A stretch of 47,242 nt of DNA, from positions 1 through 47,242 of the forward strand of contig JAHLLD010000018.1 of NCBI GenBank assembly GCA_020444325.1, given 5' to 3'. The notes beneath the pieces are model-generated. The model was given only the letters and a program-made list of their open reading frames with translations, was not told the origin of the DNA and did no database searches. Positions 1 to 47,242 of the stretch are shown in pieces. Made by a program: the position numbers and the translations under genes. The DNA is from a bacterium. Its GTDB lineage: Bacteria > Bacteroidota > Ignavibacteria > SZUA-365. The stretch's first letter is position 1. The number at the start of each line of letters is the position of its first letter.

Positions 1-146
1 GGCACGCGGGAGTGCCTGCGGCACGCGGGAGTGCCTGCGGCACGCGGGAGTGCCTTGCGGCACGCGGGAGTGCCTTCGGCACGCGGGAGTGCCTGCGGCA
101 CGCGGGAGTGCCTTGCGGCAAGCGGGAGTGCCTTCGGCACGCGGGG
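1..146. repeat. Tandem array of a 19-20 nt palindromic repeat
   Basis: Seven full copies and one partial copy run head to tail from the window edge. The unit is GGCACGCGGGAGTGCCTGC (19 nt), with variants ending in TTGC (20 nt) or TTC. Each unit contains the inverted repeat GGCAC-N6-GTGCC, so the array can form serial hairpins. Copies begin near 1, 20, 39, 59, 78, 97, 117 and 136; the copy at 117 has one substitution and the last breaks off after 11 nt. The array continues to the left edge, so its full size is unknown. It lies beyond the serC terminator. A degenerate relative in the opposite orientation occurs near 38765-38912. Confidence 0.95.
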
Positions 147-37902: not shown

Positions 37903-38655
37903 ATGCTCAAGCGGATCATGTTCCTGTCCATTATTATTCTGGCAATTGCCGCGACATCGGCATTCGCACAGGACAATAACGAGGCAAAGAAACTCTTCAA
38001 CGAGGGCAATGCCCTTCTGAAGTCCGGCGATTTTGCAGGCGCCATTACGAAATACGATGCTGCACTGAAGCTCGAGAAACACGAGTTCTACTATTACCAG
38101 AAGGGACTCGCGCTGAAGAAGTCGCGTAAAACCGACGAAGCGCTTGAAGCATTCAAATCGGCCGTCAAAACCAATCCCGAATGGGCCATTGGTTATTTTG
38201 CACTGGCAGGCGCCTATTTTTCCGATGGAAAGTATCAGGATGCCATCGAGAACTACGAACTCGCACTGAAGAAAAATCCCACACTCGGTCAGGCGAAAAA
38301 AGGTCTGGCGGCCGCACAGACGGCACGTGCTCAGCAGCTGCTCACCAAAGGTGAAACCGGCAAGGCCGCCGAACTGGCTGCAAGTGCTGTCGAGAACGAT
38401 GAAAGCTATGACAAGGCGTATGTGATCATGGCGCAGGCTTACAACAAGGATGGCAAGTACAATGACGCCATCAAGGCCGCTCAGAATGGGATCAAGTACA
38501 ACAAAAGCCCGCGTAAGGGCGCCGCGTACTTCGAGCTCGGCCTCGCTTACCGCAACCTCGGTAGCACCGCGAAAGCGAAGGATGCGTTTACCAACGCGAA
38601 AAAAGATCCCTCCTACGCACGAAACGCCGACTACGAGCTGAAAATGCTCAAGTAA
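37903..38655 (+). CDS. Secreted TPR-repeat protein
   Basis: A 250-residue protein with a signal peptide (about 1-23, ending SAFAQ) followed by five to six tetratricopeptide repeats, for example NEGNALLKSGDFAGAITKYDAALKL and YFALAGAYFSDGKYQDAIENYELALK. The repeats form a periplasmic helical scaffold for protein-protein interaction. AAGGAG precedes the ATG at 8 nt, and a strong terminator follows. It lies 78 nt after tRNA-Leu, so read-through from the tRNA promoter is possible. The partner protein cannot be inferred. Confidence 0.85.
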   Translation: MLKRIMFLSIIILAIAATSAFAQDNNEAKKLFNEGNALLKSGDFAGAITKYDAALKLEKHEFYYYQKGLALKKSRKTDEALEAFKSAVKTNPEWAIGYFALAGAYFSDGKYQDAIENYELALKKNPTLGQAKKGLAAAQTARAQQLLTKGETGKAAELAASAVENDESYDKAYVIMAQAYNKDGKYNDAIKAAQNGIKYNKSPRKGAAYFELGLAYRNLGSTAKAKDAFTNAKKDPSYARNADYELKMLK

Positions 38656-38672
38656 AGCCCACACAGAGCTTC

Positions 38673-38708
38673 AAAAAAATCCCTCCGTAAACACGGAGGG
38701 ATTTTTTT
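38673..38708 (+). terminator. Terminator after the TPR gene
   Basis: A 15-bp perfect stem (38673-38687 with 38694-38708), loop TAAACA, with a run of seven A on one side and seven T on the other. It could work in both directions. Confidence 0.93.
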
Positions 38709-38764
38709 TATGGAACACCGTAGGCGCCTGTCTCGGCGTAGTTGAGTATGACGAGACGAAGCCG

Positions 38765-38912
38765 GGAAGCTCCCGCGCACCGCAGGTGCTCACGCGCTCG
38801 TCCCGCGCTTGCGGGACGAGCTCATGCGTGCCGCCAGGCACTCCCGCGCGCCGTAAGGCGCTCAAGCGCAGCGAAGCTGCTCACGCGCGAGTCCCGCGCT
38901 TGCGGGACGAGC
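38765..38912. repeat. Degenerate copies of the palindromic repeat family
   Basis: A GC-rich patch between the TPR terminator and the stop codon of the TonB receptor gene. It contains two near-identical copies of a hairpin-forming segment (GTCCCGCGCTTGCGGGAC, copies at about 38799-38818 and 38891-38908) interspersed with 19-20 nt units such as GGCACTCCCGCGCGCCG. Read on the minus strand, these resemble the units at 1-146 (GGCACGCGGGAGTGCC), so both patches belong to one family. The minus-strand hairpins start directly at the receptor gene's stop codon and could help terminate its operon. Confidence 0.8.
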
Positions 38913-38913
38913 T

Positions 38914-41136
38914 CTACATGCTTGCTTCGAGCATCAGGCGGAAACGGCGCATGGGAGCGATGTTGGCAACGACTTCAGTGTAATGATACTGGAATACGTT
39001 ATCGACGAGGAAACTCAGACGCAGCGGGAGTCCGACCGAGCCGCCTTCCAGCGCGAGACGCAGATCGGTCACGTAAGCAGCCACGCGTTTCTCCGAATCC
39101 GGAATGACGATGGTCAGCTCGCGGTCAATGTTCTCCATGCGTGAGACATAGCGGAAATCCGCACCGAGACTGACGGGACCAAGGGTGAGATTTCCCGAAA
39201 GATACACGAGATGGCGTGGACGGTATTTGAGAATGGACTCCGTACTCAAATCCCGGGGATAGAGGTAGGTGTAACTGGCGGTCATCGTAAAAAGATCAGG
39301 CAGTGGCTGCAGGTCAAGCGCGATTTCATATCCGATGATACGGGCGCGCGTGATGTTGCGAAATGCGATGCGGCCGTCTGCGGGATCAATGCGCGGCTCT
39401 ACGAGATTCTCGTAATCATTCCAGAACAGCGCGGCATCGACACTGCTTCCGAAGAGGAAGTCCTGTTTGAATCCCAGTTCATATGAGGTACTGCGCTCGG
39501 CCTTCAGGTCTGGATTCGGTTTGGTGAGAATGCCACCCGCGCTGGCGGAGGTAAAACGTTCGGCGATGGAAGGCGACCGGAAGCCCCAGCCATGCGATGC
39601 GCGCACGAGTCCACCGCTCCACGGGACGTAGGTGAGTCCCACACGTGGATTCAGCTGAGCATCGATATCAAGCGAGTCGATTGCGGTCAGGTCATACCTC
39701 GCACCGAGCGAGAGATGCCAGTCCTTCCCCAGGGAAAGGTCGTCCTGTGCATACCAGGCAACCGTCACACCGTCACGCAGGCCAAAGGTGCGGGAATCCA
39801 CGGTGCTGTAGGACGCATCGACACCGAAGGTCAGGAAATTATCCTCGTTGAGTGTGTAACTCCCCTGGTATTCCCCGCCAAGCAGCCACGCGGTGGATTG
39901 CGTCTGATCGGTAGGACGAAAACGGAAATCCGACGTGTCGCTGGTAGTCTCATACGCGGTGCGGTAGGCGTTGAGACGAAACATGGAGGCAAAACGCGAG
40001 CTGTGTGTATGACGGTACTGCACGGAGGCCTGCGTTTTGAGGCTGTGAATATGCTCGGACAGGTCCGCGTTCACCGGTGGCTGAAGTGCATGCTCGAGAT
40101 CCCGCCAGTATACCCAGTTGCCGTGGTCATCATCGCTGTGATTGATGGAAACATTGAGGTTCCCTGACGGCGACATGCAGTACCAGGCCCGTCCGTTGAG
40201 ATTCCATCGCACAAAATCCGCGTTCTGACGATACGACTGATCGTTCCGCAGTCCACCGGTGAGCAGATAGCTGAAATCACCGTGTGCATCGCCGTGCTGG
40301 AGGTCTACCCCGTTCATGTATCGCGGACTCTCACCCCACCATTTCCACTGCTCCCACTGCGGTGTATCCCAGAACCCGCTGTACAGTCGCACCCTGGTAA
40401 CGCGTTCGCGTGGCTCACGCGTCAGCACGTTGATGACGCCCCCGAGCGCGCTTGAGCCATACAGCGCGGATCCCGCCCCCTTCACAACTTCTATGCGGTC
40501 AACAGCAAACATCGGCACGACATCGAACTTGATTTCCCCGGCATCGCCTGCGAGCACGGGCGCCCCATCGACGAGCAGGAGTACCCTGCTCCCGAGGGCC
40601 CTGCTGTAGCCACTTGAACCGCGGATATTCACCTGGTCTTCCGTGATGTTCACGCCCGAAACCTTGCGCAGGGCGTTGTCCAGCCGGTAAATGCCGCGCG
40701 CTTCGATATCGTCCGCGTCGAAGATCGCAATGCTGACCGGGATTTCCTCGAGACTCTGCGCATGCCGCCCCGCAGTGACAATCACCTCCCCGGTTTCGAT
40801 CACACTCTCGATCAGTGTGAAGTTGTGCACCGCAGTTTCGCCATCACTGATATCGACTACTACTGTTTTGCGCGAATAGCCGATCATGCTGCACTGCACG
40901 GTATAACTTCCGGCGGACAGCTGGGTAATACGATATTTACCCTCCGCATCCGTCGCGGCGCCGAGAACAGTTCCACGGATCGCAACATTGGCTCCGATCA
41001 GCGGCAAGCCCTCGGCATCGGTAACGCTTCCCTGCAATGTTGCGTTCTGCGCGTCCGCGCCTGCGGGAAGTGTGGCCAGAAATAGCACAGTCCAGACGAG
41101 AAGCTGGACTGCTATCCTGAAAGGGATTGTTTTCAT
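38914..41136 (-). CDS. TonB-dependent outer membrane receptor
   Basis: A 740-residue outer-membrane receptor. Signal peptide about 1-29; carboxypeptidase-regulatory-like domain about 33-110 (ATLQGSVTDAEGLPLIGANVAIRGT); plug domain about 120-235, with the motifs VRIEVVKGAGSALYGSSALGGVINV and LLLVDGAPV; then a 22-strand barrel to the C-terminal Met. It is the last gene of a five-gene operon (thioredoxin-like, MauE-like, cobalamin adenosyltransferase, deoxynucleoside kinase, this), starting 3 nt after the kinase gene. That context makes cobalamin or another corrinoid a plausible ligand, but the sequence alone does not specify it. No cobalamin riboswitch was seen upstream. Confidence 0.9.
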   Translation of the reverse strand: MKTIPFRIAVQLLVWTVLFLATLPAGADAQNATLQGSVTDAEGLPLIGANVAIRGTVLGAATDAEGKYRITQLSAGSYTVQCSMIGYSRKTVVVDISDGETAVHNFTLIESVIETGEVIVTAGRHAQSLEEIPVSIAIFDADDIEARGIYRLDNALRKVSGVNITEDQVNIRGSSGYSRALGSRVLLLVDGAPVLAGDAGEIKFDVVPMFAVDRIEVVKGAGSALYGSSALGGVINVLTREPRERVTRVRLYSGFWDTPQWEQWKWWGESPRYMNGVDLQHGDAHGDFSYLLTGGLRNDQSYRQNADFVRWNLNGRAWYCMSPSGNLNVSINHSDDDHGNWVYWRDLEHALQPPVNADLSEHIHSLKTQASVQYRHTHSSRFASMFRLNAYRTAYETTSDTSDFRFRPTDQTQSTAWLLGGEYQGSYTLNEDNFLTFGVDASYSTVDSRTFGLRDGVTVAWYAQDDLSLGKDWHLSLGARYDLTAIDSLDIDAQLNPRVGLTYVPWSGGLVRASHGWGFRSPSIAERFTSASAGGILTKPNPDLKAERSTSYELGFKQDFLFGSSVDAALFWNDYENLVEPRIDPADGRIAFRNITRARIIGYEIALDLQPLPDLFTMTASYTYLYPRDLSTESILKYRPRHLVYLSGNLTLGPVSLGADFRYVSRMENIDRELTIVIPDSEKRVAAYVTDLRLALEGGSVGLPLRLSFLVDNVFQYHYTEVVANIAPMRRFRLMLEASM

Positions 41137-45251: not shown

Positions 45252-47242
45252 ATGACTGACGAGTCCACCCGGAACGAGACTCCCGAGAACCTCCCCGACA
45301 ACAGCGACCAGGATCAGAACGCTGCCGCACCCCAGGGTAACGAAGCAGCGGAATCATCCACCGACCAGCCGCAGAATGCCACACCGGAAACACCGGCAGA
45401 GTCCGCGGAAAGCACCGAAGCCGCAGCAAGCACCGAAGCCGCAGCAAGCACCGAAGCCGCAGCAAGCACCGAAGCCGCAGCAAGCACCGAAGCCGCTCCT
45501 GCCGCTGTCGACCAGCCAGCCGAAGAAACCCCGGCTGCCGAAGAAACCCCGGCTGCCGAAGAAACCCCGGCTGCCGAAGAAGCAAAGCCTGCAGAGAGCT
45601 CCGAGCCCACAGCGGAGGAAAGTGTGAAACCGGAAGTGACCGCAGAGCAGACCGCGGATGCACAGGGCGACACGGCTGCCACAACCGCTCCCGCAGCGGA
45701 GGCGGCGACAGACGATGCAGCACCGGCAGCTCCCGCAACTGAAGCAGCAGCAGCCGGAGCCACTGCAGCAGTTGCTGCAGACGGCACGAAGGAAGCGGAA
45801 GGTGATGCGGAGAAAGCGGAAGGTGATGCAGGAAGTGACGCCGCGTCGGCCGCACCTCGCAAGAAGAAACTGACGGACGAGGAAGCGCAGCCCATCTGGG
45901 ATGAACTCAAGAAAGCGCATGATGAAAGCGACATGCTGACGTTTACCGTGAGCCGGGCCATTCCGGGTGGCGCCATTGTCAGCTACAAGGGTCTGGAAGG
46001 GTTCGTTCCGCGTTCACAGTTCCTGCTTTCCGGGCGCGCGGAACAGTCGGACATCGAACCGCTGGTAGGACAGGAAGTTAATCTCGTCGTTATCGAAATG
46101 ACGGACTTCTCAAAACGCAAGTACGTGTGCAGCCGCAAGCGCGCACTCAAGAAAGAACGTATGCGCGAGCTCAAGAAAGGCTCGGTCGTCGAAGGCAAAG
46201 TGACTTCGATTACAAGCTATGGCGCCTTCGTCGATCTCGGCGGCGTTGACGGGCTCATTCACATCTCCCGTCTGAGCAAAGTACGCGTAAACACGCCGAA
46301 CGAAGTCGTCAGCATGGGCGAGACGGTGAAGGTGCGCATTGTCGACATTAACGAGAAGGACGAACGCATCGCCCTCAGTATGAAAGAATTTACCGAATCG
46401 CCCTGGGCCCACGCCGAGGAGCATTACAGCGTCGGCAACACGGTAGCGGGAAAGATTCGGAACATCACCGATTTCGGTGTCTACGTGCAGCTCGAACCCG
46501 GCATCGTCGGCATGGTGCACATTTCAGACCTTTCGTGGACCAAACGCATTCAGCACCCGACGGAAGTCGTCAAAATGGGTGACGATATTGAAGTTCGCAT
46601 CATGGATGTGCGGCCGAAAGACCGCCGCATCGCACTCAGCCTCAAAGATACGCAGCCGGATCCGTGGCCGCGCCTTGCGAACATTTATCCCCCTGATACC
46701 GAAGCCGATGGCAAAATCAAACAGCTGATGGAAGCCGGCGCTATCGTGGAACTCGACTTCGATATCGACTGCTTCGTTCCTCGCGGCAAGATGGGCGGAC
46801 GCCGCCGTCGTGGTCAGAGCGCTCCAACCTACAATGTGGGTGACGCAGTGCGCATCAAGGTCGTCGAAATGGACACCGAGAAGCATTCCTTCATCGGCTC
46901 CATCGTCCGTGAAGACGGCGGCGATCCGGAACCGCGTGACCGTGATCATTCCCGTTCCGATTTCAAGGTACCCCACGGCAACACCGGCGAATCCGGCTTC
47001 ACGCTCGGTGACGAGCTCGACAGTCTGAAAGAGCTGTTCGGAAATTCTGCAGCCGAAACCGACAAACCGGCCGAGGACGCCTCTGCAAAGGAAGAAGCAC
47101 CCGCAGAGAAAATCGTCGAAGCATCAGCCGAAGCCGCTCCTGCCGCTGTCGATCAGCCGACCGAAGAATCCCCGGCTGCCGATGAGACCCCGGCTGCCGA
47201 TGAGACCCCGGCTGCCGATGAGACCCCGGCTGCCGATGAGAC
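45252..47242 (+). CDS. rpsA: Ribosomal protein S1-like RNA-binding protein, partial (3' end outside window)
   Basis: An open frame from ATG 45252 to the window edge (663 codons, no stop). It encodes a repetitive, acidic Ala/Glu/Pro-rich N-terminus (about 1-205) with 4.8 copies of STEAAA and 3 of EETPAA, and a lead-in PIWDELKKAHDESD (214-227). Four S1 domains follow: a degenerate first (about 228-295), second (310-380, GSVVEGKVTSITSYGAFVDLGG), third (395-466, GNTVAGKIRNITDFGVYVQL) and a degenerate fourth (about 486-555). A linker containing a LGDELDSLKELFG segment leads into an Ala/Glu-rich tail with EESPAA and DETPAA repeats. The S1 core fits ribosomal protein S1 of the FCB group, but length beyond the window and number of domains are unknown. 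No strong Shine-Dalgarno (GCGGAAA) is present. Confidence 0.85.
   Translation, partial: MTDESTRNETPENLPDNSDQDQNAAAPQGNEAAESSTDQPQNATPETPAESAESTEAAASTEAAASTEAAASTEAAASTEAAPAAVDQPAEETPAAEETPAAEETPAAEEAKPAESSEPTAEESVKPEVTAEQTADAQGDTAATTAPAAEAATDDAAPAAPATEAAAAGATAAVAADGTKEAEGDAEKAEGDAGSDAASAAPRKKKLTDEEAQPIWDELKKAHDESDMLTFTVSRAIPGGAIVSYKGLEGFVPRSQFLLSGRAEQSDIEPLVGQEVNLVVIEMTDFSKRKYVCSRKRALKKERMRELKKGSVVEGKVTSITSYGAFVDLGGVDGLIHISRLSKVRVNTPNEVVSMGETVKVRIVDINEKDERIALSMKEFTESPWAHAEEHYSVGNTVAGKIRNITDFGVYVQLEPGIVGMVHISDLSWTKRIQHPTEVVKMGDDIEVRIMDVRPKDRRIALSLKDTQPDPWPRLANIYPPDTEADGKIKQLMEAGAIVELDFDIDCFVPRGKMGGRRRRGQSAPTYNVGDAVRIKVVEMDTEKHSFIGSIVREDGGDPEPRDRDHSRSDFKVPHGNTGESGFTLGDELDSLKELFGNSAAETDKPAEDASAKEEAPAEKIVEASAEAAPAAVDQPTEESPAADETPAADETPAADETPAADE
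45411..45581 (+). repeat. In-frame 18-nt tandem repeats in the S1-like N-terminus
   Basis: AGCACCGAAGCCGCAGCA (STEAAA) is repeated 4 times at 45411-45482 plus a partial copy to 45497. After a spacer, GAAGAAACCCCGGCTGCC (EETPAA) occurs 3 times from 45522 to 45575 plus a partial copy. Both repeats are 18 nt and in frame; copies are near-identical at DNA level. Confidence 0.93.
47181..47242 (+). repeat. In-frame 18-nt tandem repeat in the S1-like C-terminal tail
   Basis: GATGAGACCCCGGCTGCC (DETPAA) is repeated from 47181, three full copies and a partial one running off the window edge. It follows a near-copy of the N-terminal module (the same EAAPAAVDQP lead at 47130), so the two ends of the protein share one repeat module. 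Confidence 0.9.

Follow-up and report, generated by a model that had tools for sequence, protein, structure and literature searches.

A dispersed family of tandem palindromes with GCNNGA linkers, often in contact with stop codons, in the genome of a bacterium of the Ignavibacteria

REP/BIME repeats, which are associated with TnpA-REP (RAYT) proteins, are short extragenic palindromes that occur in many copies, are clustered, and in some cases lie close behind stop codons. The features we used as definitions come from excerpts of three reports (PMC12306157, PMC3733652, and PMC8266576): for a REP, a short extragenic palindrome in many highly similar copies with a common consensus; for a REPtron, GTAG beside the palindrome and a RAYT gene flanked by the repeats. 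According to an excerpt of PMC8266576, a group-3 REP can take the form of a perfect palindrome of 5 bp with a loop of 4 nt, located 2 bases from GTAG. Among the systems described in such excerpts, RAYT group-3 REPs (Marinomonas REPtron Mb and S. maltophilia REPtron Sm) are nearest in geometry to the repeats reported here, with short perfect palindromes, loops of 3-4 nt, and, next to the stem, a short stretch that is constant. CGTC-tagged palindromic repeats occur in Bacteroidetes and Chlorobi, among others, and the part of PMC3733652 that deals with them reports no dedicated transposase found adjacent. A different precedent is offered by template-switch (quasipalindrome) mutations: template switching can create and repair hairpin stems, leaving perfect stems in which both arms have changed together (PMC8794818). 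Our literature searches, a weak negative, found no described family of the kind presented below.

The stretch of DNA analyzed here (the window) is 47,242 nt long and is the entire contig C18 of a genome of 4,646,367 bases in 25 contigs. Its relevant features are the following:

38771-38912, minus strand: array of six tandem hairpins with 6-nt GCNNGA linkers, from reading the sequence and the hairpin chain
38887-38912, 38868-38880, 38848-38861, 38828-38841, 38796-38821, 38777-38789, minus strand: the hairpins of this array
38914-41136, minus strand: TonB-dependent receptor gene, which the array follows
38914-38916, minus strand: stop codon TAG of the receptor, at the same protein end position in genus relatives
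38673-38709, no strand: terminator-like palindrome (A-run, stem, T-run) between the array and a convergent TPR gene, from reading the sequence and from relatives
1-146, plus strand: related array of GTGCC-TNC/TNNC-GGCAC hairpins with GCGGGA linkers, broken off by the contig end
223-277, minus strand: two-hairpin array opposing the 1-146 array, its first base being the last base of the serC stop codon
277-1362, minus strand: serC (phosphoserine transaminase), whose stop codon adjoins the 223-277 array

Two other repeats were seen in the window. A stretch of the form GCCTGTC.CGGCGTAGTTGAG...CGA.ACGAAGCCGG at 38713-38765, found also at about 640-690 of L063, is apparently another dispersed repeat beside arrays, and 18-bp tandem repeats lie within a long open frame at 45410-45581 and 47170-47242, the contig end falling inside one of them.

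On the minus strand, the linkers of the patch behind the receptor gene read, in order, GCGTGA, GCTTGA, GCGGGA, GCATGA, and GCGTGA, followed by a terminal GCGGGA (38771-38776). A preliminary description of this DNA had reported two copies of a hairpin with arms GTCCCGC and GCGGGAC and a GCTT loop, and both are present: GTCCCGCGCTTGCGGGAC lies at 38800-38817, inside a perfect 11-bp stem with a 4-nt loop, and again at 38891-38908, where a 7-bp core is followed outward by a TC/CT mismatch. The patch, given there as 38765-38912, was also said to begin exactly at the receptor stop codon. The first hairpin does start at 38912, one base past the TAG, but the family members end at 38771 and not at 38765.

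Local alignment of the patch with the array at 1-146 gave a score of 55 on the minus strand and 24 on the plus strand, in agreement with the earlier claim that the two loci match on opposite strands. The maximum was 38 among dinucleotide shuffles and 41 among random palindromes that copied the geometry but had random linkers, so that none of 1000 in either control attained 55 and a chance-level likeness of GC-rich palindromes was ruled out. Controls that kept only the real linkers or only the real stems attained 55 in 3 of 1000 cases each, and hence both linkers and stems contribute to the alignment.

The supposition, drawn from these two loci, that the palindromes belong to a dispersed family held on a genome-wide scale. 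A covariance model made from 30 units found at least 83 units (E<=0.1) in 27 clusters, a lower bound with 150 of 4513 candidates scored; 41 of the 83 are located within the first 190 kb of contig C1. Reading 978,040 bases, i.e., 21% of the genome and partly picked for containing model matches, yielded 47 arrays having two linkers or more, whereas a single dinucleotide shuffle of the same bases contained not one two-linker unit. Under a stricter rule, there were 24 arrays against 0.0 per shuffled set (five sets). Arrays were found at or near an end of contigs C2, C9, C12, C18, C21, and C22, which suggests that the assembler stopped within them; the array at 1-146, in particular, is cut off by the assembly, since the window is a whole contig starting within it. 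Array lengths at such contig ends are unreliable, and this is what could be said for a chance likeness of GC-rich palindromes or an assembly artefact. We regard that explanation as scarcely credible given that the patch at 38.7 kb sits inside the contig, that no control in 1000 reached the alignment score, and that the stricter rule left nothing in shuffled sets. As an account of the whole family, chance is refuted by the shuffles and the random-palindrome controls.

Each unit has three parts: a stem, 5 to 14 bp long in the cases seen, with G as its first base and C as its last; a loop of the form T-N-C or T-NN-C; and the 6-nt linker GCNNGA. The spacing is exactly 6 nt in 62 of 72 gaps between adjacent hairpins of intergenic chains, and every stem used for the covariance model has the opening G and the closing C. 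In the 75 units flanked by linkers on both sides, GCGGGA, GCTTGA, GCGTGA, and GCTGGA are the commonest linkers, and the loops are almost all T-N-C or T-NN-C. Only the linker, the loop ends, and the closing pair are constant between units: among 78 distinct linker-to-linker segments, there are 27 distinct outer 5-mers. These segments are intergenic ones with at least 60% Watson-Crick pairs, a set biased towards pairing, and were used because a pairing-free search for linker runs was noisy (78 runs against 10 per shuffled set, with 104 of 175 distinct segments not hairpin-like).

Two further hairpin types were noticed alongside this family. A second class of hairpin arrays has the linkers AACACC, AACCAC, or GGTGTT (L071:5655-5777, L053:15-92, L053:1921-2002, L132:11584-11732, and the end of L216), and its placement seems unlike that of the GCNNGA arrays. 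In addition, a hairpin with arms like CGTCCCCACGC and GCGTGGGGACG recurs, mostly in single copies, in genomes G000 and G002, at sites that include:

L130:4256-4323, hairpin with arms of this type
L137:18620-18689, the same
L067:14847-15170, the same
L172:19015-19087, the same

Compared with the definitions given above, the GCNNGA repeats are short extragenic palindromes (46 of 47 arrays lie between called genes) in many copies (at least 83 matches), but they show neither highly similar copies with a common consensus (27 outer 5-bp stems in 78 segments) nor either REPtron feature, GTAG beside the palindrome or a RAYT gene flanked by the repeats; they differ also in their fixed linker and long runs in the same direction. 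The tetranucleotide GTAG occurs once on either strand in 2763 bp of arrays. CGTC occurs 30 times on either strand, but in the units of the window it sits within paired arms, whereas the tag of CGTC-tagged repeats is unpaired, as far as the excerpt cited above describes it. The genome has one Y1 transposase gene (C4:175149-175373), with Y1_Tnp above the Pfam cut-off. Its match to the REP-associated transposase model, although below the cut-off (49.2 against 80 bits), together with the similarity in geometry to the group-3 REPs of the PMC8266576 excerpt, could mean that these are true RAYT group-3-type REPs in which GCNN replaces GTAG and which are moved by this transposase. We consider this improbable: group-3 REPs have GTAG on one side, whereas here GCNNGA stands on both sides of stems that vary freely and have no consensus; no array lies in the 20 kb around the Y1 gene (C4:165001-185000); and 11 of the 12 genomes of the family carry Y1 genes, the majority giving no covariance-model match. 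We read the GCNNGA family as REP/BIME-like, yet without the three tested REP/REPtron features, namely consensus, GTAG tag, and linked transposase.

Placement was counted relative to genes called with a home-made gene caller. On their 5' side, the 46 intergenic arrays have the 3' end of a same-strand gene in 26 cases, the start codon of an opposite gene in 17 (11 of these in divergent regions), and a contig edge in 3. The preliminary description, which had placed the family at gene ends, was therefore right for the 26 and not for the 17. Where arrays do follow a gene, however, they adjoin the stop codon more tightly, and do so more generally, than that description could have known. The nearest arrays at 19 same-strand gene ends lie at -21, -6, -5, -1, 0, 1, 1, 1, 7, 13, 16, 17, 23, 41, 77, 87, 94, 108, and 171 nt from the stop codon, 8 of the 19 counting as within 1 nt, and by eye several of the more distant ones are connected to the stop codon via weaker units. 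Some stop codons form the end of a linker (GCGTGA, GCTTGA, or GCTAGA) or lie within a loop (GCTCGC-TGAC-GCTCGC). Start codons are kept at a distance: none of the 17 arrays with a start codon on the 5' side is closer than 60 nt to it (63 to 435 nt observed), and none of the 24 with one on the 3' side is closer than 130 nt, all keeping at least 140 nt. Among 30 array-bearing intergenic regions, nine hold both directions, and the arrays face each other in all nine. In tandem intergenic regions, 12 arrays are sense and 4 antisense (5 and 1 under the stricter rule).

The density of GC-rich hairpins peaks in convergent regions, at 15.6 per kb; it is 4.4-5.0 per kb in divergent and in tandem regions and 3.1 within coding sequence. 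Such a distribution might be seen if the arrays served as transcription terminators or roadblocks between convergent genes. We find that role very unlikely, however, since the units lack a following T-run, a separate terminator-like palindrome exists at the receptor and serC sites and in most relatives read, and Rho is encoded. The sequence of the patch array contains no T-run. An intrinsic-terminator scan of 38500-39000 returned nothing, and it also missed the palindrome at 38673-38709, whose T-run is inside the stem. Two other candidates were rejected: a loss of Rho as the reason for the hairpins, because Rho is encoded, and a known RNA family, as the window contains none, only two tRNAs being found at the gathering score.

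The arms are perfect in 37 of the 78 distinct segments. Over the whole set, 88 of 583 pairs on the GCNNGA strand are non-standard, including 57 T.C/C.T, 10 C.A/A.C, and 7 G.T/T.G. The T.C/C.T pairs make up a recurrent two-by-two internal loop, e.g., GCTCG...CTCGC, that could be a recognized structure. Since G.T is not favoured over C.A, which differs from the expectation for RNA selection, the pairing looks as if it were kept on DNA, small as these two counts are. A covariation table was excluded as evidence of pairing because its units had been selected for perfect stems.

These data bear on the possibility that the family is a selected RNA element, i.e., that the hairpin ladder immediately following the stop codon serves as a functional 3' UTR, stabilizing the mRNA or slowing ribosome release, and is maintained by selection. 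Contact with the stop codon within 1 nt at 8 of 19 gene ends is in line with it, and so is the excess of sense over antisense arrays in tandem regions, a bias that might reflect selection acting at the 3' ends of mRNAs. The patch RNA folds better than shuffles (minus strand, -92.3 kcal/mol, z -3.9; plus strand, z -3.2), and an excerpt of PMC12306157 reports lowered translation where a REP lies within 15 nt of a stop codon. On the other hand, G.U is not preferred in mispairs, 17 of 46 intergenic arrays begin behind a start codon rather than a gene end, and the receptor and serC sites have no array in the relatives read (see below), so that we hold this explanation to be doubtful.

At the 3' site of the receptor, no such array was present in the 11 relatives read (G003, split between contigs, was left out, and 28 other genomes were outside the comparison); most of them have a short 3' end and a terminator-like palindrome. 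Likewise, the serC site has no array in 10 relatives with the same protein end (partial G011 dropped), and a separate terminator-like palindrome lies at the same place in most of those read. The absence of arrays at both sites in relatives indicates that these arrays are young. A different picture was seen in G002, whose rpe and clpX genes have hairpin arrays of their own at or near the stop codon, with the linkers GTATTTG or GCTTGG/GCGAGG, where G000 has GCNNGA (the rpe comparison was made without the incomplete G007, and that of clpX without G004, which gave no full match). At the clpX 3' end of G002 (L237), it is a GTATTTG-linked array that lies close behind the stop codon, the array of G000 there being a GCNNGA one. 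In G011, the last 20 or so bases of the receptor gene, together with the stop codon, are repeated several times in tandem (L083).

The proteins of the receptor gene, serC, and clpX end as in relatives, which ruled out truncation of these genes by inserted stop codons; rpe ends in LRGA, as in G001, and in LRG in G006, G008, G009, and G011, with no clear sign of truncation either way. Across 149 genomes, the covariance model had matches in five: G000, G009 (3), G002 (2), G083 (1), and G104 (1). By eye, those in G083 and G104 and one of those in G002 fall in coding DNA. An exact pattern scan of named genomes gave a match in the MAG 'Bacteroidetes bacterium isolate MAG20', and a third match, a single unit in a Clostridia MAG, is probably due to chance.

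What we observed is the grammar of the units, their dispersion, their contact with stop codons, the order in which they face each other, and the lack of arrays at two orthologous gene ends; template switching, slippage, spread, and function we infer. The reading we put forward, at about even chances, is that the tandem DNA palindromes form a young family, restricted to its lineage, which works in the manner of a REP/BIME repeat, its stems made by fold-back template switching and its arrays grown by slippage. Stems would be created, and kept complementary, on DNA through fold-back template switching at replication; arrays would lengthen by slippage and by exchange between loci. They would spread through unconstrained intergenic DNA until they came up against sequence under constraint, namely the stop codon at one edge and the promoter or leader at the other, and selection at the first constrained base would halt them. 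Once transcribed, an array would form a ladder of hairpins between stop codon and terminator. Such a ladder would presumably impede 3'-to-5' RNases and possibly also the ribosome at termination, either incidentally or in a secondary capacity. The arrays might have a role in protecting mRNA or in ribosome release.

A trace of such copying may be preserved at uvrB (L053:5887-7902, minus strand) and in the bases before it. There, a perfect 25-bp inverted repeat has one arm made up of the gene's final codons plus its stop codon, and the other arm runs into the linker of an array. Constraint acts on the coding arm, so the most plausible reading makes the outer arm the copy and the repeat, judged from the sequence, a footprint of fold-back copying. 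In the sample, 1 of 612 stop codons had a long inverted repeat of which one arm was coding; the fold-back step accordingly rests on one case, and fold-back with a coding arm is unsupported as a general rule. Template-switch mutations as described in the PMC8794818 excerpt are isolated events, whereas here they would have formed a dispersed tandem family with its own linker.

The filling of free space alone leaves unexplained why stop codons are frequently in linker or loop register and why arrays face each other. One could suppose, tentatively and against the probabilities as we see them, that it is the architecture and not the sequence that is inherited: arrays would be seeded in the register of the stop codon, which would supply the last bases of the linker or the loop, and would grow, always pointing inward, by fold-back copying of local DNA, so that sister species rebuild them at the same gene ends with different linkers (clpX and rpe in G000 and G002). 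An enrichment at the replication origin or terminus was considered and set aside, the GC skew of the sampled stretches not being decisive.

Compensatory changes in stems commonly count as proof that an RNA is under selection. If the DNA-based reading preferred here is right, this family would be a compact natural case of dozens of perfect, fully covarying hairpins that seemingly arose on DNA with no G.U intermediate step. It also shows how such repeats can end up exactly at stop codons, and, through comparison of strains, it makes the origin of REP-like elements testable.
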